Assembly: GCA_947172415.1 (NCBI GenBank)
Contig: OX359192.1
Location: 6,326,501 to 6,390,500, forward strand
DNA from: Chondrosia reniformis
Taxonomy: Eukaryota; Porifera; Demospongiae; Chondrillida; Chondrillidae
Length of the DNA: 64,000 nucleotides
Reading direction: 5' to 3'
In this document: positions 3,001-33,110 of the stretch, in pieces
How the letters are laid out: each line of letters starts with the position of its first letter
How positions within the stretch are numbered: position 1 is the first letter of the stretch
Made by a program: the position numbers and the translations under genes
The notes under the pieces: model-generated
What the model was told of the DNA's origin: nothing
Database searches by the model: none
The model's input: the letters and a program-made list of their open reading frames with translations, nothing else

Positions 3001-4518
3001 TCTAAAATAAGGGCCTAGTGTCTAAAATAAGGGCCTAATGTCCAAAATAAGGGCTTAATGTCCAAAATAAGGGCCTAGTGTCTAAATAAGGGCCTAATGT
3101 CCAAAATAAGGGCCTATACCTAAATAAGGTCCTAATGTCCAAAATAAGGGCCTAGTGTCTAAATAAGGGCCTAATGTCCAAAATAAGGGCCTATACCTAA
3201 ATAAGGGCTTAATGTCCAATAAGGACTAAGGGTGACATAGTGTAGACAATACTGAAAATAACTTAAAAGCTAATTCTCCTACTAAATGTAAACATGTTTA
3301 TGAATGCTTCCTTTTTAGGCTATTCACATCAGAGATAATGTGCTGATGGGGGAAACCTTTGCATATAATTTTCTATTCACAGAGTAACAAAATGGCAGCT
3401 GGTTTCCACTTTCCACATCTATCAACCCGACTTGCTCTTTCGACTTGCTCTATGTGCACCTGGTTGATGACTCGCCCTGAGAGGGGTGCAAGGCCTCTGC
3501 AGGGGATCTATCAACCCATCACATGCCATTCCTCAAACTAACCATCATCAGTTCCACATCTTCTTGTTTCCCCCTCTGCGGAATTCCTAACAATGAGAAA
3601 ACAGAAAATGAGCCCACAGTATAGACATTGGAAAATTTAGGGCAGTGCCCTGGGTGCTACAGCACCCCGTCTGAGTAAATTTGTTAATATACTGGCCAAA
3701 CAGCCTCATAGGCCCTTTCTCTGTCACACTCCTGTATAATGTAGCACACACCATTGCAAATTTATAGATCCACCCCTGATACAAACATAAGACAATGTAC
3801 AGCTGATTTACATATGCACCTAAGTATGTTTACAATATTGTCCTATTAAATTGATGACTATGACAATAACCACATTAGAGTCCACTTTAAAACATAAAAA
3901 CAAATAATCCTATAGGTAGGTGTTGTATAGTACTACACAAAAATACAGGTTGATCATGCATAAGGACAAGCTATTGAGGAGATGACATTAACGACCTTTC
4001 CTCTCCTCCTTCAGATGCTCCACTTGCGCCAGTAGGTCTGCGCGGTATTCCACACTGCAGCGCTGTAGCTGACGCTGTTTGTCGATAGCATCAGCTATCT
4101 TTGAACACTCCTGAACTTTGAGAAACCTTTCAGAGGTCCCATTGGCCAGTCGCCTCAGTCCCTCCCCCCACACACAAACTGGCACGCTGCTGCAGGAGAC
4201 TACGTATGTAACAGTAAAAAGGAAAGATCGTCAGTTTAGCACGCTTACAGAATGTACACATTCAAAGTCGTGAGTCAACGCTTACAGGACGACGACTCGT
4301 TGTTCCATATTGCAAGATTCTGCAGTCCACTGAATGTAAAGCTAACTGGAGGCGCCTCCGTATGCGTCTAATATAACATTCAATACGCATATAGACTTCT
4401 TATGATATATTATCTGTATAAGACACAACCTCTCAGAGTGACTTACAGAATCTGGTTCACTAATGAAAATTGGCCGAGCAGCCATTTTTATCAAGTTGAT
4501 TAACCCAGCTACATCCAT
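78..4518 (-). CDS. NUP85: NUP85 nucleoporin, N-terminal part (runs off left edge)
   Basis: Structural subunit of the Y-shaped (Nup107-160) complex of the nuclear pore. Exons seen, 5' to 3': 4447-4518, 4286-4319, 3996-4199, 923-1154, 759-840 and 78-125; the rest lies beyond the left edge. The strongest signature is the 923-1154 exon, with WELVWNLSEILYIE followed by LVEHLLEWVRR and FWDLVGFL. It joins in phase to VFQGSFKEAARLLEKA, the conserved alpha-helical region of NUP85. The upstream exon has LRRLANGTSERFLKVQ, aligning with LRKLFNESHGIFLGLQ of the human protein as I remember it. Two starts are possible, 4518 or 4485 (MAARPIF). The intron 1155-3995 is unusually large and filled with minisatellites. 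Its donor reads gtcgtt, which is weak, and the phase across it does not close, so a micro-exon may be missing. The 923-1154 and N-terminal exons could be separate genes only if that link is wrong. Confidence 0.8.
556..597. repeat. 15-bp-arm inverted repeat in NUP85 intron
   Basis: Positions 556-570 (tgacctcagatcatg) are the exact reverse complement of 583-597, with a 12-nt spacer. It lies in the 633-bp intron between exons 126 and 758. It may be a hairpin or the remnant of a small inverted-repeat element; nothing else identifies it. Confidence 0.85.
1596..2633. repeat. 61-bp minisatellite, 17 copies
   Basis: A 61-bp unit begins caatcacctccctctccatt and repeats head to tail about 17 times with no length change. 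Variants are a few substitutions (ccggcc/ctggtc/ctgtcc; cctata/ccaata; caatca/cagtca). It lies in the large NUP85 intron. The array ends abruptly and is followed at about 2645-2678 by a partial copy in reverse orientation (agggagggtctagcaggcct), so the right end can fold back on the last unit. Confidence 0.97.
2944..3222. repeat. 20-bp minisatellite (ataagggcctaatgtccaaa)
   Basis: About 13-14 tandem copies of a roughly 20-bp unit, with drift in unit length towards the right end (shorter cctatacctaaataag variants). It sits in the same NUP85 intron as the 61-bp array but shares no obvious sequence with it. Confidence 0.95.
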
Positions 4519-4641
4519 CTTTTTAACCGGGATAGACAGGAAGTGACAGCATCACCACATTCAACGTTATCCTCGACCTAATCATCGTTCGGTTGGAATA
4601 GTTCAAGCTTGGCTAAATCGTGCGCTCACATCGCTAGAAAA
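4519..4641. promoter_or_regulatory. Bidirectional promoter, NUP85 / triple-PH adaptor
   Basis: Only 123 bp separate the outermost NUP85 start (4518, minus) from the adaptor start (4642, plus), so both promoters and 5' UTRs must share this interval. CG steps are more frequent here than in the flanking introns. No clear TATA box is seen in either direction. The call rests on gene arrangement, not on a recognised element. Confidence 0.6.
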
Positions 4642-7600
4642 ATGCCATCAGAGGAGGATTCGCTGCAAATGGATAAATCGTTAATTAAAGGTACTTACTT
4701 GTAGGTGCGTCAATAAGAAATGCGTCAACAGTGTTCAACCTTATGTGCTTGCAGAATGTATCGACTTCTTTAAGGATCTGAAAGACAAGAAGCTGTCCTC
4801 GGACCAAAGGTACAAGAAGGGTAAGCTATTAATGTCTTTGGAGGAAGCTTTGAAGAAGGATGAAGCGAGCAGCAATGGTGTAGAAAGCAATGGCCAACTT
4901 CAACCAAACGACGGCGAGCTCTATCTCCCTATGGACATGGAAGAACTACCTGAACAGCCGCCAGCAGTACCTGAGGATTCCCGACCCCAGCGCCAGTCCG
5001 AGGGAGAGCTCTACACACCCATGGACGAGGATGACTTCAAGACGACTGAGCCTGCTCCTGTGATCAAAGAAGAGTTGATTGAGGAAGATCAGGAGGAGTA
5101 TGTGGATGTCGAAGAAGCAAAGGAAGGTGTGAAGAGCTACCTCTCCGCTGATAAGAGCGGGGAGGCGATTTCCCCTAGCCCCTCTACTGAAAACCTCAGT
5201 GGAAAGAAATCTGAAAAGCCATATGGCTTCTTACGGCGAGGAGGAAAGCGTTCCTCGGAAAACAACGAGACCTTTCCTCTCCCAGACAAGAGTGAAGCGC
5301 GAATGTGTGGGCACTTGGAGCAGAAGCTGGGCGGCTTTAAGTCAAAAACCCAGGCCTACTGGGTCCAACTTCATAATAATACCCTATACCTGGCCAAGTC
5401 ATCACGAGAAGATGCAGTTAAGTTGGTAAGTACCTTTAATTCCAACTAATGAATTTCCAGGATTAGTTTTGTACGATACACATTCCTGTGATCACTGAAG
5501 GATGGAGAAACTGTATTAGGAATAAAACATACTGCAATGTTGTGACTCTGTTAGCAAATAAACATTTTTGCAACATATTTCCATAATACTAGTTGAGTTC
5601 CTTGAATATTATTTACATACTCTATGATCACTCCTTAACTAGTATTCAAGTACATGATATGACTATAAATATATTACCCAATTTCCTGAGGAGTTTAATT
5701 TTGTTTTGGCATAGGTTGACTAAGAAATATAACTATATAGATAATGTCAAAGTTTGTGTTATGGTAATCACTGGAATGTGAAGTGTGTTATGCATAAACA
5801 TGTATATATGTATATAAAACCTAAATAAGCAAGTGCATGGGGATAATCCTGTCATTAAGATGACTGACATTTTTACAGTACATGTACAACATAAAGATTA
5901 AGGAATACCCAGGGCATCAATATGCTACGTGTATATATATATACATAATATTGTAAGACTTTGTTTAGGCCTAATGAATATGCATATTGATTTCTTTTGC
6001 CAAATATGGTCATATAAAGATGACCTTAGTCTAGTCATGAATATTATAATGACCAGTGTTGTGTGACAAGAAGCTGTAAGATTCTCTTTACTGCTGTACT
6101 TCACTGCTGTATTTACTTCTCTTCTCTGCTTTACTTCACTGCTGTATTTCACTGCTGTACTTCACTGCTTTACTTCACTGCTGTACTTCACTGCTTTACT
6201 TCACTGCTGTACTTACTTCTGTTTAGATCTCTCTCAATGGTATGACTGTTGAGAAAGCTAAGGGGGCAGTACCTCAGTTTGATATAATTGGCCCCAAGAA
6301 GAAAGATAAAATGACATTCAAGTCTGAAAGTGCTGAAATTAACAGCATGTGGGTGATAGAGTTGCAGTCCTCAATACTTGAAAACAAGCCAGTGGATAAC
6401 ATCAGCATTACTGAGAAAGGTACATGTGATTTTGGTTCGTGTGCAAGGAAGCAAGGTTGTATGTGTACTATATCCATTCTATTTACTTTCATTGTTATTA
6501 TTGAATTAATTTAATAGTTTAAAATACACTGTAAATGTCTCTATTCCTGGTCAATATTTTGAAAATTGAATGTAGTTGTTTAAATTTCTTTAATAAATTG
6601 ATTTGTTTAAATTTTACGTTTTCATATGACACAATACATCATATGTATTCTAAAGACAAGATAAATTATTTCGATTTAAAACTAATGTTTTTCATTTTAG
6701 CCTTCCTTTACTAAAACCAAGTCATTATTATTGATATACTATAGCACCAACAAGTTTGGTTTAGTGTCTGGGATTAGGATCTATATACATAGAAATTTGA
6801 TGCAAAATTTTTCTTTCATCTAGAGAGTCTACAAACGGATTATGTGAATGTGCCTAGCAATCCTGAAATAGGAGAAGAGCTCTATGATGACTTGTTGGAG
6901 GACGGAGCTATTATCGGTTCATCTCCATCCACTGAATTAGGCTCAGAACTAAGTGTAGCCTCCCCCTCTCACCGCCCACTGAAGAGCCCCCTCCCTGACA
7001 TCCCTCAGCCAGAGGAGAGTAAGGCCAAAAGCAAGACACTCAAGGAAAGACTCTTCAAGAAACAGGCCGCAGACTCTAAAGTTCACAACCCCATGCCTAA
7101 ACAGTACATCCACGCAGGTCATATTTACATGTACAAAAAGAAGGGCCTGATTGGGGGGGACTGGGAGAAGAGATACTGTGTTCTTTCAGGAGAAGGGAAG
7201 CTCTACTACTCCCAGGCAGATAACGAAAACGAGTGCAAGAGTTTTCTAGACGCTAAGCCCCACATTAACAAGATTGCCATGAAAGATGCCCACAAGGACA
7301 AGAAGGTGGAGAACCATCCTTTCCTCATGCTTATTGCAAAGAGCACCTTTGCCTTCATCTCTGCTGAGGAGAGGAAGAAATGGAAAGATGAGATCGACTA
7401 CACCTTGAGCTCAGGCTTAGAACTAGATTCTGAGGATGAGGAGGAAACGGAAGCGAGCTATGTTATACAAGGTGAGACTTCCAGACCTCATTTATGTTAC
7501 TAATTTTGTAAATGACTTGCACACACAAACTTTTTGTGCACTTTGATTGAGAAAGCTGTATCTTTACCCAAATTGTGTCTGGTCTTCTCTCTGTATGTAC

Positions 7601-8924
7601 AACTGGTGAAATAGAGGAAGAATATGATGCTGATGACATATATGAAGCATTTGATGAGGTGGGATATCAACCGACTACTCAACCTGCTCCTCCCCCTGCT
7701 CCTCCCCCAGAATTGCCAGCCACAAGAATGCAAAATAGAGGACCAGCCCTGCCGCCCAAGGACCAACCTCTCATTCAAGAGGAAATGTATGAAGACGCTG
7801 ATGATGCTGTAGCTGATTACAACCGCTTCAAGACTGATCAAGGCTTGCCTCCTACTTCAGGGCCTGCTCTGCCTCCACGAAACCCATCTATTTCACAGAG
7901 CCCACTTCCTCCCCTTCCAGCCAAATCTGATAAACTACCTGGCCAGCCAGATACTGTTGATGATATTTATGATGATACGCTTGGAGAACAAGAGACCTAT
8001 GATGATGTTGAAAATGCCAAGTCTACTGTTGAGCCAACTATTCCACTTAAATCTCAGGTATTTATAACAGTTACCTCTAAAGCTAATGCTCTCAAAAAGC
8101 CTGTAGCTCAGAAGAACCTTCCCAAAAACTCACCCGCCTCTACACCAACAGGAACACCTAAGGGCTCTCCTAAAATAGCCTCCAAATCTTCATCATTCAC
8201 CCCAACCAAGCCACCGACCCCCAAATCCTCCCCTCAGCTCAAGAAGTCCGCTCCATCTCCGGAAGAACCAGCAGAGGAACTGTACGATGATGTGGAATCT
8301 GCCACTGCTGTGAAACTGATCACAAACACACCTATTAAGCAGTCCCCTTTAGTTTCAAAGAAGCTTACCTCCCCACCTCAAAATGTACCAGAAGAGATCT
8401 ACGATGATGTTGAGCCATCTGCACAAGATAACCCTGAAGAAGATGATGATGGCACCTACATGGTAACTGACAATCCAGGTGTCACTTCCCCCAGTGCCAA
8501 CCTGTCTTTGCCAAAAAGTAACACCTCTGTGTCATCTCCTGGGAGAATCAGATTGCAAAGTAGTGGCAAAGTGGCAGATATGATGAAGAAGTTTCAGCAA
8601 GGGGATAGTGGACAAGATATTAAGTGCAAAGGACGTATTGAGTGTAAACAGCCTGGAAAGCGGTCATTTGTCAAAAATTTCTGTAAATTTAAGGGATCCA
8701 CAATTAGCTTCTATCAGTCATCTGTTGATCCTGAGCCTCATAGCACACTGGATGTGAGCGTTTGTGAACTCTCCCTCTCTAATGAAGATTTCAATGCCAA
8801 GTATTCCTTCAAGCTATCTGCTGGTAGTGTCTACCATACATTCAATTGTGACTCCAAAAGAGAGATGGATAAGTGGATAGATGCCTTGAAGGATGCTGTC
8901 AAGAAGTCAGCTATTCCCGCTTAA
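4642..8924 (+). CDS. Triple-PH-domain phosphotyrosine scaffold/adaptor (SKAP/AFAP-like)
   Basis: Exons 4642-4690, 4755-5425, 6227-6419, 6824-7471 and 7615-8924 give 956 residues. A short helical N-terminus (residues about 17-55, CIDFFKDLKDKKLSSDQRY) resembles the SKAP or AFAP N-terminal helices. PH domains lie at about residues 200-300 (MCGHLEQKLGGFKSK), 400-490 (AGHIYMYKKKGLIGGDWEKR) and 856-950 (ending EMDKWIDALKDAV). The linkers are acidic or proline-rich and carry many tyrosines in SH2-ligand-like contexts: two YxxM motifs (YLPM, YTPM: PI3K p85 type), YVNV (Grb2 YxN type) and repeated IYDDV/LYDDV/TYDDV. Proline runs (APPPAPPPELP) could bind SH3 domains. There is no SH2, SH3 or kinase domain, so this is probably a membrane-recruited signalling scaffold. 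Three PH domains are unusual for SKAP or AFAP families, so I give no symbol. The acceptor at 7615 is the least certain junction. Confidence 0.8.
6080..6222. repeat. Degenerate ctgctgtacttca tandem repeat in intron
   Basis: About ten imperfect copies of a 12-14-bp unit (ttcactgctgtac / ttcactgctttac) directly precede the acceptor of adaptor exon 3 at 6227. The array forms much of that intron's pyrimidine-rich 3' end. Confidence 0.8.
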
Positions 8925-9291: not shown

Positions 9292-11334
9292 TTAAAAGTG
9301 TGTTTCAGCCTGACCTCTCTCCTGCACCTCTTTCCTTCTTGTCATGGCTCTTTTCTAAATTAAAGAGAGTTATATAATGAGGCCAACTGAAAAAATGATG
9401 ACTTATATACATGTATATATATTAATGCATGCTCCACACACCTGGGACTCAAGATAGTGGTGAAGTGTCTGTTCAGACCAATCTAGCAGGTGCATGCCAT
9501 CAGGAGGCATTTCAACATTAGTTGGCTTCTTGTTCAGTAGGAAGAGCAGACGTGTAATGTCACTCATGACATTCCTAGCAGTTATTAATATACATAATGA
9601 ATAAATCCATGGACTGAATAGGTATAATGCAACCCTTAAGTACATACGTACTTGTATGATATGGCTGCCTTAGAGTTAACAGGTAGCTCTTTCAGTCTTC
9701 TTCTCATGTCATTTAACATTCTTAGAAAATCTGTAGAATGCTTTCTCAAACGATCAAGCTTTCTTAGGAAAGCAATCATCTCTTCAGAGTGATTGCCATG
9801 TGCAAACATTTCTAGATTAGTAAAAGTATTCTAGTAACACTCACAAATTTAACAGGCCATGAAATACATAGGAACATCTTACCATAGTCCCTTTCATCAC
9901 TGATAAGAACACTTTGTCTATGCCCCGAGATTTCTACCAATTGGGGATCCTTCAAAACAGTAAACCAGTTGTCAATGCCCAGAAAGACAATTGAGCAATA
10001 AAGTACCTTATATTTGTTGCCCTTCTGATTGTCCTTTACTGGTGCATCTATGAAACCAACATTTTGGCTTGTAAGCCCACTTGACTCCTCAGTCCTAGGA
10101 TCAAACCCTCTTGTCCTACATCAATATACATATCAAAGAGCCAAAAATATACATGCGTATATATAGGGGTCTTTAAAAATACACTCATCATTACTGGTTG
10201 GCTAAATAGGCAGTCTTGTAGTACTAACCTCCGTTGTCTATATAGCATTAACCCATAAAACACCAGAAATGATATGATGGTGATGAGCAGTATAGCACCA
10301 ACAACACATACAACTGCTATTAGTACAGTCTGGTTAGTGTCTCCGGCTGGAGTCACCTGTACACCTGTACAAAACAGAAATTTACATCTTTAAAATAGCT
10401 CAATAATCACTAGAATAATCTACGGTACCCTTTTTCTATATATACACATCATGATTGACATCAATATGAGGCAAAGGAAGAATATTTAGGAAAGACTGCA
10501 TGCACACACATACACAGACTCTTACCAGAGCAGTACCTCCTCGATACCACTTCATTAAAGGTATTTATTATTTGGTGGGTTCCACTGGGGCAGGTCTCGT
10601 AACAAAATTGGATCCCATCAGGGGATTCGTACAGGAAATCAACACATCTGAAACATTCAAATAAGACAGAGGATTTCCACTGAAATAAAGTGACTCAAGA
10701 TAGATTCAAATACCTTGCACAGATTGCAACTCCGGTTACATCATCCGGACAGTACACACAATCAGTGATTGGACAAGATGCATCTGGAACTGAGTATAAA
10801 AAAAAACATTTAGATCCTTGTTATAGTGATGGATCAGTTAGTTTTAAAAACTTTTATGTGTGACAAAGGGATTTAGGAAATAACCTGAGGAGTTTAAGCA
10901 TTCCAACTCTTCTTTAGATATACCGAACGTTCCTGATATACAGCCGCATTTACCATCCTTACAAATTGAAAGAGGAGGTTGACATTCACTAGTGTTCTGA
11001 CAAGCTGCAGAAAACAGAAAGAAGAAAAATAACTCAATTTTATTCCTAGAAACAGCTGTCTAGGCCCAGTGGAGCAAAAGAATAAAGACTCTTATGTCCT
11101 CATCCAAAGCTCTCACTAGGTTTAATTCCCTATAGGTCTTTCACTGTAGAATGGATGTAGTACGAGTTAGATTAGAAGGGGGCGTGTACCTCATTAATAC
11201 CGTAGCTCATACAACTTACGTATTTGTCCGCTGGACAACAGCGGTAAAGTAAACAGTACTGAAGAGAGGAGTATCATGTGGAAACGATCACCACGCGTCT
11301 GATACCATCTACCGAATTGCAGATCCTCAGCCAT
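9292..11334 (-). CDS. Unrecognised type I single-pass membrane protein, Cys-rich ectodomain
   Basis: Ten exons (5' to 3'): 11220-11334, 10885-11004, 10714-10783, 10526-10647, 10229-10364, 10007-10115, 9883-9949, 9652-9811, 9442-9574 and 9292-9354. They give 364 residues with consistent phases. A signal peptide follows Met20 (MILLSSVLFTLPLLSS). The ectodomain has about 14 cysteines in EGF/TNFR-like spacing (CQNTSEC, CKDGKCGC, DCVYC, CYETC). One transmembrane helix lies near residues 165-190 (LIAVVCVVGAILLITIISFL). The roughly 170-residue cytoplasmic tail has a charged helical stretch (MIAFLRKLDRLRKHSTDFL), then DITRLLFLLNKKP and MHLLDWSEQTLHHYLE, which read like a folded helical domain I cannot name. 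It could be a death-domain-like or sponge-specific receptor; function unknown. It is convergent with the adaptor (367 bp) and divergent from copine (123 bp). Confidence 0.75.
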
Positions 11335-14939: not shown

Positions 14940-15291
14940 CAGTTTAAACCATTTTGTAATTCTTTTATTGTAGAAGATATAATGTAGCTGGTTCTATTTG
15001 TGTAGAGTGTACATATAGCAATTATATTGAACTCAATATCTTCCAAACATGCGCATGACAAGGCATGCATCCCAGATAGATATGCATTTTTAATAGGAAG
15101 GATCCATCAGTTGAAACACCTAGAATAGTGAATATATGTACATATTAGATATACCTTCTGGTTTTCCTTCGTGGCCACGCATGCGTGAATTGCGCAAGCT
15201 CACCGCGAGATCAGGCGCCAGAGCCTGGTAACCTTCGCGTGGAAGCGTAACTAAACCTGTAGCCTACCACTCGGCTGCATTCTGTGAAGAA

Positions 15292-16359
15292 ATGGAAACT
15301 ATTCGATCAATTACCCCAAAACTTCAAGCCAATCCTTCTCTAGCAGCCGCGGGATTGGTTGTTTTGGGATCAGCAACTCTTTACCTCCTGCGAGTATACT
15401 TCAGTGGAGGTGTCTGTAGGAACAAGAACCGACTGGACAGCAAGACCGTGATAATAACTGGGGCCAACACTGGTATCGGCAAGGAGACCGCCATTGAACT
15501 AGCCAAGAGAGGCGCGCGGGTTGTCATGGCCTGTAGAAGTCCGCAAAGGGGCCAGGAAGCTTTAAAAGATGCGAAGGATAGAAGTGGTTCCAAGGACATT
15601 GTTCTGATGAAACTTGACCTCTCGTCTAAGCGATCTATCAAAGAATTTGCTGAAGATTTTCTGGCCCGGGAAAAGGAGCTTCACATTCTAATCAATAATG
15701 CTGGGGTCATGCATACACCTTACCAGAAAACAGAGGATGGATTTGAAAAGCAAATTGGTACCAATCACTTTGGACACTTTTACCTGACTCATCTCCTGAC
15801 AGAGAGACTGAAAGAGTGTGCTCCTAGTCGCATCATCAATGTTGCATCAATTGCTCATGTTGCCCACAAGCTGGACTTTTCTGATTTAAATTTTGAAAGG
15901 AAGCCATATGATACATATGCTGCCTATGGCAACAGCAAAGCTGCCAACATGCTTCATGCATACGAACTTTCCCAAAGACTGAAAGATGTTGGTGTGACTG
16001 CATACTCACTTCACCCAGGAGCAGTGAATACTGAACTTACAAGAGAATATGGCTTTTTAGCCAAAGTGAGTCCAAATAAGCAAGTACACAGTACGTACTT
16101 GTACATACTTACAGTGTTTGTCTTTATGCATGTACAGGTGTGTTTTCTTCCTCTTAAATGGATTGGTTTCAAGACAAGCTGGCAAGGTGCACAGACAACC
16201 ATCTATCTAGCCACAGAGAAAGGCGTGGAAAAAGACTCTGGTTGGTACTTTGCAGACTGTACCAAAAAGACTCCGTGGAAAGGTTTACTGAAGGATCCAG
16301 AGAAGGCCAGGAAGCTATGGGATATAACTGTTGAGACACTAAAGATTAAGGATGATTAG
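15292..16359 (+). CDS. Short-chain dehydrogenase, retinol dehydrogenase 11-14-like
   Basis: Two coding exons, 15292-16065 and 16138-16359, give 331 residues. An N-terminal hydrophobic anchor (AAGLVVLGSATLYLLRVYF) is followed by a classical SDR Rossmann fold. The sequence shows the cofactor motif TGANTGIG, the NNAG motif, a catalytic serine region (INVASIAHV) and YGNSK, the catalytic Tyr-x-x-x-Lys. MACRSPQRG after the second strand resembles the NADP-preferring retinol dehydrogenase group (RDH11/12/13/14). Expected role is NADP-linked oxidoreduction of retinoids or other lipid aldehydes at ER or mitochondrial membranes; the substrate cannot be read from sequence. The 72-nt intron 16066-16137 has no stop and keeps frame, so reading through would insert 24 residues. 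I treat it as an intron because of gtgagt/tgtacag ends and loss of SDR homology inside it. Confidence 0.92.
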   Translation: METIRSITPKLQANPSLAAAGLVVLGSATLYLLRVYFSGGVCRNKNRLDSKTVIITGANTGIGKETAIELAKRGARVVMACRSPQRGQEALKDAKDRSGSKDIVLMKLDLSSKRSIKEFAEDFLAREKELHILINNAGVMHTPYQKTEDGFEKQIGTNHFGHFYLTHLLTERLKECAPSRIINVASIAHVAHKLDFSDLNFERKPYDTYAAYGNSKAANMLHAYELSQRLKDVGVTAYSLHPGAVNTELTREYGFLAKVSPNKQVHSTYLYILTVFVFMHVQVCFLPLKWIGFKTSWQGAQTTIYLATEKGVEKDSGWYFADCTKKTPWKGLLKDPEKARKLWDITVETLKIKDD

Positions 16360-22361: not shown

Positions 22362-22392
22362 TTTGTTACGTAAATAGGTATCGATAAATAAA
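22362..22392. promoter_or_regulatory. 31-bp bidirectional intergenic gap, B3GNTL1 / PEX10
   Basis: The start codons of two divergent genes are only 31 bp apart. The promoter of at least one gene must overlap the 5' UTR or coding start of the other unless upstream non-coding exons exist. The interval carries tacgtaaataggtatcgataaa and no obvious core promoter element. Confidence 0.6.
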
Positions 22393-23352
22393 ATGGCCTC
22401 CGCTAGTTTGGGCCCGAGTGTTCGCTTAATTCATGCTGACGGTCCATCCTTGATCAAAAGCAACCAAAAGGATGTCTATTATGTTGGCCACATGCACGAG
22501 ATGATTTCAGGCATCATCAAAAGGATAGTTTGTCCAAAAACTTGGTTAAGTTGGCATGCTGAATTACATCTTTTTGCGGAAATACTTTACTTTGGTTTAA
22601 CCACCCTATCTGGACGACAGACTTTTGGCGAGGAATACAGCAATATTTTACAAGTTAGCCCAAAGGGCTCGTTGGAGTTAGACTATAAGACACCCAGTTG
22701 GTTGCGTAGGGTTAGCTTTCTGATGTTACAAACATTAGGGCCTTTCATAATTCGGAAATGGTTAACTAAATTGCGCAGCCTATTGTCAAGGGGTGCACAT
22801 AATGCTAGTGATGAGACCAAACAAAAATTTTGCAAGATATTGGATGGCTTACAAACCGCTATTAGGATTGCATCACAGTTTCATTTGGCATTCTTTTACT
22901 TGACAGCTACCCACTATCACTTGGCAAAGAGGGTAGCAAGTGTCAAGTACATGTCATTGGTGGAGGGTACATTTGATTTGAAAGCCAGCAATCCCTACAG
23001 CCCGCTTGGACTGCTTCTTTTGATTCAGCTAGGCCTGGAGCTTGCTAGCCTTGCCCAAGGCTACCTTGACTCAATGGCCCTTGGTATGAGAGATGCAGAG
23101 GTTATATCTGTAAGAAGTGAAACTGAGAATATTGGAACTATAGAAACAGCTCCAAAAGGTTCTAGTCAAGAATTAAGCTTAAGATGTTCCCTTTGTCTAG
23201 GAAATGTGAAGGCACCGGCTGCTACTCAATGTGGGCATGTATTTTGTTGGCATTGCATAATACCCTGGTGCAGTCGAGAGAAGGCGTGTCCGATTTGCAG
23301 AACATCTTCTAATCCACAACAAATTGTATTTTTACATCATTTCAGTGTATAA
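22393..23352 (+). CDS. PEX10: Peroxin-10 RING E3 ligase (PEX10)
   Basis: Intronless, 319 residues, close to the usual PEX10 length. The N-terminal Pex2/Pex12-type membrane region contains DVYYVGHMHEMI and RQTFGEEYSNI, typical of PEX10, then hydrophobic helices near residues 100-230. The C-terminal C3HC4 RING finger is complete: CSLC, then CGHVFCWHC, then CPIC, with WCSREKACPICR. PEX10 forms the peroxisomal retrotranslocation channel and ligase with PEX2 and PEX12 and ubiquitinates the import receptor PEX5. Being single-exon among heavily split neighbours is notable. It is head to head with B3GNTL1 (31 bp) and its 3' end is 121 bp from that of the convergent meteorin-like gene. Confidence 0.95.
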   Translation: MASASLGPSVRLIHADGPSLIKSNQKDVYYVGHMHEMISGIIKRIVCPKTWLSWHAELHLFAEILYFGLTTLSGRQTFGEEYSNILQVSPKGSLELDYKTPSWLRRVSFLMLQTLGPFIIRKWLTKLRSLLSRGAHNASDETKQKFCKILDGLQTAIRIASQFHLAFFYLTATHYHLAKRVASVKYMSLVEGTFDLKASNPYSPLGLLLLIQLGLELASLAQGYLDSMALGMRDAEVISVRSETENIGTIETAPKGSSQELSLRCSLCLGNVKAPAATQCGHVFCWHCIIPWCSREKACPICRTSSNPQQIVFLHHFSV

Positions 23353-31868: not shown

Positions 31869-33110
31869 TTATTCAGTTCTATCTTCTTCTCCCTGGGTGC
31901 GTTTTCTTTTTAACAGATCTGGCATTATAGCTGCTGAGCTGAGAAGGAATCTACAACTTACTCCAGCAAATAATGCACCACAAAGTGGTCCCAACCAATA
32001 GACATAATGATCCTTCCAAACGCTTAGTGGTTCTTGTGCTACCATAGCAGCCACTAATGGCCCCAGGCTTCTAGCTGGATTCAAAGAACCGCCAGTAATA
32101 TGAAACCTATGTCATATAAAAGTTATACAGCTACATCATAAAGGATATAGTCTGCAATATAAATATGTATAAACTATATATGTATATGTGGGAGAACTTT
32201 CAAAGGACTGTATGCTCGAGGAGCCATTTATACCAGACTTTAATGCCCATACAAGATTCATATACACTCTATATATATACCCAGCTAATATTGCAGCTGT
32301 AAGTGCTAGGCCAATACACAATGCAGCTATCCATTTCGAAGTTGACTTCTTGTCCATGGCACAGTTTATAATGGTTGTCACAAAGAATGCAGTAAGCATC
32401 ATTTCCACCAAGATTCCTTGCCCAGGAGATACATTGGGCCCCAGTGTGTGGATACTTGTCGTTATGTAACTATTACCCAATACCTGTAATCAAATGAATA
32501 TAGTATACTTTAAGTATTATATAAAGTGATGGAATTAATTGCACACTAAAGCAAAGGCTATAATGAATAAGACTTCAATGACATGACTGGTCAGCATAAA
32601 ATATTCCAATGATTATTCACTTCTTCACATATAGTATAAAATGTACATTGCCATATACTATATGTGTGTATATACGTATACAACTCTGATAATGCAATAC
32701 TGTGCAATCTTATACAATGCAAAACCATGTGCATGGAACAGATCCAAGCTAACCAAGACTATCAAACAACCACAAATCCCACCAGCTATCTGAACCAATA
32801 CGTAGCATAATGCTGTCAGCCAGTTGATACGTCCACTGATAAAGGCACCAAGAGTGACAGCTGGATTGAAATGTCCTCCACTGACGTGTCCAAAAGCAGC
32901 TACCATACCCATCAGTCCCAATCCATGACTCAAGGCCACTGTTACCACTGAAGAAGGACTGGGTCCATCTGTCCCAGTGTGACTGCTTGTGCTCAAGACA
33001 CTGACAAACACAAAGCCACAGGTCCCATAAAACTCTGCCAAAGACCTGTGCACCAAGTTAACCCAAAACTTTTTAGTTTTCAAAGCACTAATCCAGCCAA
33101 ACGTTCCCAT
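31869..33110 (-). CDS. Aquaporin (MIP family water/solute channel)
   Basis: Exons 5' to 3': 32685-33110, 32281-32483 and 31869-32106 (288 residues). Six hydrophobic helices are predicted with both pore signatures: HFNPAVTLGAF in the first half and LNPARSLGPLVA in the second. Other family hallmarks are the early Glu in HRSLAEFYGTCGFVFV and GHVSGGHFNPAV before the first NPA box, and WIYWLGP-like YVYWLGPLCGAL after the second. The gene has no long Asp-containing loop typical of aquaglyceroporins, so a water- or AQP8-like channel is more likely, but selectivity cannot be settled by reading. Its stop lies only 152 bp upstream of the NCLX start on the same strand, so its 3' UTR probably overlaps the NCLX promoter. 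Confidence 0.93.

Follow-up and report, generated by a model that had tools for sequence, protein, structure and literature searches.

Research on SKAP and ADAP proteins has dealt mainly with their part as adaptors in T cells and neutrophils. Members of the SKAP family possess a single PH domain, a C-terminal SH3 domain and an N-terminal helical dimerisation domain, and those of the AFAP family are characterized by two PH domains, N-terminal SH2/SH3 docking motifs and a C-terminal coiled coil or leucine zipper. In IRS and DOK proteins a PTB domain follows the N-terminal PH domain, and Gab proteins also carry their PH domain at the N-terminus. The layout of ADAP, as given in the passages of the source cited, names no PH domain (PMC8290198). 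Among the matches listed in our search of the open-licence literature, no work on SKAP or on a three-PH scaffold in sponges was found. Our study describes a locus whose product combines features of several of these proteins. The reading that we favor, with some confidence, is that it constitutes one gene, that its 956-aa product is a cytoplasmic scaffold working like the SKAP/ADAP adaptors, and that this product is probably a divergent SKAP relative.

Gene model and PH domains

A single coding sequence of 956 aa, running from ATG to TAA on the + strand at positions 4642-8924 of the window (the whole 64,000-nucleotide stretch analyzed, 6326501-6390500 of contig C4), was predicted from splice signals in five exons, with four GT-AG introns and one frame kept throughout. 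Exon 1 (4642..4690, +; aa 1-17) contains the ATG and the N-terminus, where a predicted helical hairpin begins, and ends at a GT donor in phase 1. Exon 2 (4755..5425, +), lying between an AG acceptor and a GT donor, encodes a dimerisation-like hairpin with a CxxFF motif (aa 17-56), the tyrosine motifs YLPM, YTPM and YVDV, and the first part of PH1, the remainder of which is supplied by exon 3 (6227..6419, +). The YVNV and YDDL motifs and PH2 are found in exon 4 (6824..7471, +); a proline-rich, YDDV-rich linker, PH3 and the stop codon are found in exon 5 (7615..8924, +). Outside its PH domains, the protein is chiefly linker, in which proline, serine and acidic residues abound. A search of the genome (117.4 Mb in 15 contigs) with the 956-aa protein, in which six candidates were scored, returned its own exons and one other match (E 5.9), and at the sensitivity of that search the gene would be single copy.

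The first-pass annotation had claimed three PH domains at residues 200-300, 400-490 and 856-950, and the Pfam profile search bears out both their number and their ranges: three PF00169 matches, all above the 25.1-bit cut-off, lie at aa 199-290 (PH1, 36.8 bits after splicing), aa 403-497 (PH2, 34.9 bits) and aa 865-949 of the whole protein (PH3, 45.2 bits, scored as a fragment). When these domains were compared with 177,635 distinct PDB sequences, the first match of PH2 was the SKAP1 PH domain (E 8.3e-5), and four of its seven matches at E<=1 were SKAP chains; PH3 found the ARAP3 PH domain first (E 1e-5), and PH1 found IPCEF1 first, weakly (E 0.016). Matches of PH1 to coronavirus nsp7 (E 0.37-0.71) were put down to chance. 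Against comparison sequences not drawn from a database, PH2 reaches z 9.3 with the SKAP2 PH domain and z 7.7 with the second PH domain of AFAP1L1. The three domains are hardly alike among themselves, their pairwise scores being reached by 714, 1263 and 105 of 5000 shuffles. Because PH domains are widespread, pairwise scores of this kind express family likeness more than descent. A PH-domain tree of 23 rows, two of which (sp_L007 and sp_L008) are wrong-strand translations, leaves 13 of its 20 inner branches open, and no kinship was drawn from its branching order. Folded alone, PH2 gave a poor model (mean pLDDT 50.8) that was left unused.

The basic W-x-K-R motif was compared in alignments to the SKAP-like PH domain. 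PH2 keeps it as W418-E-K-R421, whereas PH1 reads Q216-A-Y, with both basic residues lost, and PH3 reads V873-K-N, with the second one lost. As the only domain in which the motif is kept, PH2 is, judging by its residues, the likeliest phosphoinositide reader of the three.

The N-terminal segment and a SKAP-like gene on the same contig

A human SKAP2 query, its sequence not drawn from a database, identified a SKAP-like gene among 29 records, which consist of the window and 28 fetched loci and correspond to 20 places (L001-L008 lie inside L009-L016). Its main exon is at L014:4116-5479 (G000:C4 6688115-6689478), about 353 kb from the three-PH gene. PH and SH3 domains, both above cut-off, are accompanied in it by an N-terminal ARDFLSDL segment and two IYDDT sites, and in the PDB its PH domain is closest to that of SKAP1 (E 3.6e-8), with PLEKHA5 near behind (2.1e-7). 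In the genome search with the same kind of human SKAP2 sequence, the top one of 23 matches is this gene (E 9.9e-8), and the next match to the PH part is PH2 of the three-PH gene (E 0.044). Aligned with the SKAP-like PH domain, PH3 scores 69 and PH2 scores 57 (0 of 5000 shuffles reach either), and PH1 scores 34 (reached by 323 of 5000). It is important to note that two of these results count against SKAP kinship, namely that PH3 rather than PH2 aligns best with the SKAP-like domain and that PH1 and PH3 are closest to other families in the PDB. At E<=10, the SKAP-like gene was missing from the results of the search with the full-length 956-aa protein (six candidates scored).

Dimerisation of SKAP1 requires residues A17, F20 and L21 (PMC6282339), and the counterparts in SKAP2 are given as V24/F27/V28 (PMC8290198). 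The three-PH protein has CxxFF in the same register as AxxFL in the SKAP-like gene, and the score of a gapless 32-residue alignment of both N-termini is reached by 93 of 5000 shuffles. Furthermore, a phase-1 intron interrupts both genes at one and the same codon of the alignment, immediately ahead of CxxFF/AxxFL. The split codon is E17 in the three-PH gene; in the SKAP-like gene it is completed by the exon from L014:4116, whose acceptor looks clear, and the assignment of exon 1 (L014:2293-2350) is tentative: four upstream candidates have the same donor score, and this one lies closest.

Profiles of the N-terminal hairpin were scored against a background of 4655 fragments with an open frame, 241,732 aa in all, taken from the window and from L009-L028. 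With a six-sequence profile (the N-termini of three AFAP proteins, two SKAP proteins and the SKAP-like gene), exon 2 of the three-PH gene ranks second of 4047 matches, next after the SKAP-like gene, which is itself in the profile; two of 5000 shuffles reach its score, and its E of 2.6 against the background is weak. The score of exon 2 is reached by 74 of 5000 shuffles with an AFAP-only profile (background rank 692 of 4034), by 81 with a human-only profile (318 of 3894) and by 72 with a SKAP-only profile (64 of 3708). Nor do the human-only and AFAP-only profiles recover the hairpin of the SKAP-like gene, which they place at ranks 3016 of 3894 and 3217 of 4034, respectively; therefore, either both are underpowered or the SKAP-like hairpin is non-homologous as well. 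AlphaFold2 folds the exon-2 fragment alone (aa 18-75) as a helix-turn-helix, with block mean pLDDT of 76-94 over the first 40 residues. Foldseek returned for this model one match only, not meaningful at E 8.8, and the N-terminus found in the PDB no SKAP chain and one chance match (E 4.2). Its best pairwise score, 43, is to XB130 (a sequence not drawn from a database) and is reached by 8 of 2000 and 24 of 5000 shuffles. The resemblance of this N-terminus to the SKAP/AFAP N-terminal hairpin is no more than suggestive.

Tyrosine and SH3-ligand motifs and a putative mechanism

The motif counts cover 601 linker residues and were compared with 5000 within-linker shuffles that kept the composition of each linker. 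Exact YDDV occurs three times (aa 649, 744 and 783), and related sites are YDDL (aa 325), YDDT (aa 639) and YEDA (aa 579). None of the 5000 shuffles reached the counts of YDDV (3), Y[DE][DE][VLIMTA] (6), the acidic context [EDQ][EDT][LIMTV]Y[DE][DE] (6) or the SH3 ligand PxLPx[KR] (3), and for this reason the YDDV-type and SH3-ligand patterns are genuine features of the protein. The two YxxM sites, YLPM at aa 73 and YTPM at aa 103, carry less weight (153 of 5000 shuffles), and the single YxN, the YVNV at aa 311, is what chance would give (2455 of 5000). Neither YxxP nor [RK]xxPxxP occurs in the 601 linker residues. The two YxxM sites and the at least four YDDV-type repeats read by the first-pass annotation are thus present; its Grb2-type YVNV is present too, but since YxN is at chance level this site has no statistical weight and is not evidence by itself. 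As for the role in receptor tyrosine kinase signalling that had been proposed, the YxxM and YVNV sites exist, but the EELYDDV-type sites would point instead to Src-family kinases and Nck/SLP-76-type SH2 proteins, because they resemble the pYDDV sites of ADAP (PMC2908683).

In what it says of dimerisation, of the lipid bound, of the kinases and partners and of the role of the protein, the mechanism that we propose goes beyond this anatomy and is inferred. The N-terminal helical hairpin would dimerise the scaffold, and PH2 would bring it to a phosphoinositide membrane, probably one containing PIP3, with PH1 and PH3 perhaps binding other lipids or proteins. Src-family kinases may then dock on the PxLPx[KR] motifs and phosphorylate the acidic EELYDDV-type tyrosines, so that the repeated pYDDV sites could recruit Nck/SLP-76-type SH2 proteins and, with them, actin regulators; in a second arm, the two YxxM sites could recruit PI3K p85 and raise PIP3.

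Precedents in the cited sources bear on both arms. Full-length SKAP1 and SKAP2 have been reported to bind PIP3, SKAP2 only at the higher lipid content of 20% (PMC8282632), and R131 of SKAP1 is among the residues needed for this binding; a point against the proposed mechanism is that PI3K inhibitors did not alter how the isolated SKAP1 PH domain was targeted to membranes (PMC8290198). An ADAP pYDDV peptide pulls down SLP-76, Nck1/2, PLCgamma1, p85, RasGAP, Crk and Gads, and direct binding of Nck to ADAP is confirmed; as reported in the passages cited, yeast two-hybrid assays confirm only SLP-76, the Fyn SH2 domain and Nck, leaving p85, RasGAP, Crk and Gads unconfirmed, which counts against the mechanism (PMC2908683). 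Clusters of phosphorylated nephrin, Nck and N-WASP form at membranes and drive the assembly of actin (PMC4238058), and p85 is bound by the N-terminal YxxM of XB130 (PMC4068053). In the genome studied here, at least 82 SH2 matches were found at exon level, and these, like its spliced genes, agree with an animal source. A candidate p85 is given by an iSH2 match below cut-off (26.2 vs 31.5 bits, E 3.5e-4), in a search that also gave a below-cut-off match in the archaeal control; as this iSH2 match is paired with an SH2 match about 1.2 kb away, it likely represents a p85.

Kinship and comparison with known scaffolds

The protein is a SKAP-like scaffold that we file in none of the SKAP, AFAP, ADAP and IRS/DOK families, because it possesses neither the SH3 domain of SKAP, the PTB domain of IRS/DOK, the hSH3 domain of ADAP nor the C-terminal coiled coil of AFAP. 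At E<=10, SH3 families are absent from the Pfam matches of the 956-aa protein, and PTB and hSH3 families are absent from its Pfam listing; the genome search for hSH3 gave no match in this genome or in the control genomes and so lacks a positive control. The chain stops seven residues past the PH3 match, which leaves no C-terminal coiled coil. The first-pass suggestion of a distinct docking protein holds insofar as the three-PH layout is absent from the families tested, but the protein is probably not kinless, because PH2 is nearest in the PDB to SKAP1/SKAP2, the contig also carries a SKAP-like gene and, suggestively, the N-terminus is similar to the SKAP/AFAP hairpin. It is likely an unusual SKAP relative and not an entirely novel type of protein.

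Several other explanations have to be weighed. A lineage-specific scaffold made by domain shuffling, with PH domains from different families, convergent docking motifs and no particular tie to either SKAP or AFAP, strikes us as rather doubtful: it would agree with the dissimilarity of the three PH domains, with their different top PDB families (IPCEF1, SKAP1 and ARAP3) and with the open branches of the tree, but not with the intron position and phase common to the SKAP-like gene, the PH2-SKAP matches in the PDB and in the genome search with SKAP2, or the similar YDDV/YDDT sites of the SKAP-like gene. We consider it unlikely that the protein is an early-branching member of the AFAP family (AFAP1/AFAP1L1/XB130) in which a third PH domain has replaced the C-terminal coiled coil. 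The comparison sequences, which were not drawn from a database, give XB130 as the best pairwise match of the hairpin, AFAP1 PH1 as the best partner of PH3 (z 10.3) and AFAP1L1 PH2 as that of PH1 (z 6.4); PH1, however, has no signal to the PH1 of AFAP1 or AFAP1L1 (597 and 502 of 2000 shuffles), and the coiled coil is missing. A small BLAST with the whole protein places SKAP2 (E 2.7e-4) slightly ahead of AFAP1 (0.001) and AFAP1L1 (0.002), and XB130, whose sequence we take to contain EELYDDV, would also speak for AFAP. XB130 has, in addition to its p85-binding N-terminal YxxM, several SH2/SH3 docking sites (PMC4068053).

Less probable still is the preservation in this gene of a SKAP/AFAP intermediate, descended from a common ancestor that had PH domains, YDDV sites, YxxM and a dimerisation hairpin at its N-terminus. 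We give little credence to a docking protein in the manner of Gab, IRS or DOK that would serve receptor tyrosine kinases, the role proposed at first. PH domains occur together with YxxM and one YVNV, and the reported Grb2, Crkl, Sos and Shp2 homologues in the sponge Amphimedon (PMC7260276) mean that readers may exist; against this stand the missing PTB domain, a PH1 that begins only near aa 199 and the chance-level YxN. Finally, it is very improbable that the model fuses two genes or contains incorrect exons, for although the exons come from splice-signal prediction, the frame is unbroken across four successive GT-AG introns and the intron at codon 241 falls inside PH1, whose joined halves give a full PH match.

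If the protein is a divergent SKAP relative, as we favor, the presence of a SKAP-like protein and a three-PH relative in one genome would suggest that scaffolds of this type arose before immune cells did and were varied by gain of PH domains and loss of SH3. The protein would also be a candidate scaffold that may both read PIP3, through PH2, and raise it, through YxxM. Were the SKAP/AFAP intermediate true, the Src-adaptor/PI3K feedback scaffold of vertebrate immune cells would predate those cells and date to the first animals.

Compared with the known systems, the protein resembles SKAP1/SKAP2 (SKAP55, SKAP-HOM) in PH2, whose best PDB match is a SKAP PH domain and which keeps W-x-K-R, in the YDDV-type sites and, suggestively, in having CxxFF where SKAP1 has AxxFL; unlike them, it has three PH domains instead of one and no SH3 domain, is much longer, and carries two YxxM sites as well as SH3 ligands of its own. 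With AFAP1, AFAP1L1 and AFAP1L2 (XB130) it shares more than one PH domain, a suggestively hairpin-like N-terminal segment, an N-terminal YxxM as in XB130, and proline and SH2-docking motifs, but it has a third PH domain and lacks a coiled coil or leucine zipper at the C-terminus. Gab, IRS and DOK proteins also combine PH with YxxM sites, although here the PH domains number three, none is N-terminal and the PTB of IRS/DOK is lacking. Finally, ADAP (FYB1) differs in its hSH3 domains and is alike in its repeated YDDV sites and proline-rich linker, and the same SH2 proteins would likely read the sites of both.

Genes around the three-PH gene

On one side of the three-PH gene, coiled-coil-like open frames (window 3988-4551, minus strand) were recognized by eye; they lie on the strand opposite to it, across a short gap and apparently in a head-to-head arrangement. 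On the other side lie exons of an apparent membrane protein (9403-11059, minus strand), in which an EGF-like segment rich in cysteine and a transmembrane stretch were recognized by eye; four of its fragments were tested against Pfam, and none matched at E<=0.001. The window also includes a short-chain dehydrogenase (15232-16356, plus strand), a PEX2/PEX12-type peroxin with a RING finger (22378-23349, plus strand), and an aquaporin-type (MIP) fragment (32661-33110, minus strand).

Other PH-bearing loci of the genome

In locus L012, the frames at 4862-5593 and 5988-6542 (plus strand) encode a PH domain followed, by eye, by a PDZ-like domain, together with YEDL/YDNP tyrosine sites, and they possibly represent another docking protein. 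In locus L009 (2707-5816, plus strand), a PH domain adjoins a long stretch that appears by eye to be coiled-coil and IQ-like; this PH domain was the sole match among the loci to the AFAP1L1 sequence at E<=1e-3.

SKAP-like gene and the SKAP and AFAP N-termini

The SKAP-like gene (L014:4116-5479, corresponding to G000:C4 6688115-6689478, plus strand) has an AxxFL segment at its N-terminus, IYDDT repeats, a PH domain, and an SH3 domain, nearly all of it apparently encoded by a single exon. Among the human proteins, the N-terminus of SKAP2 reaches 7.5 bits against a profile built from three AFAP N-termini (E 0.00024, one sequence searched), a hint that the SKAP dimerisation domain is akin to the AFAP N-terminus.
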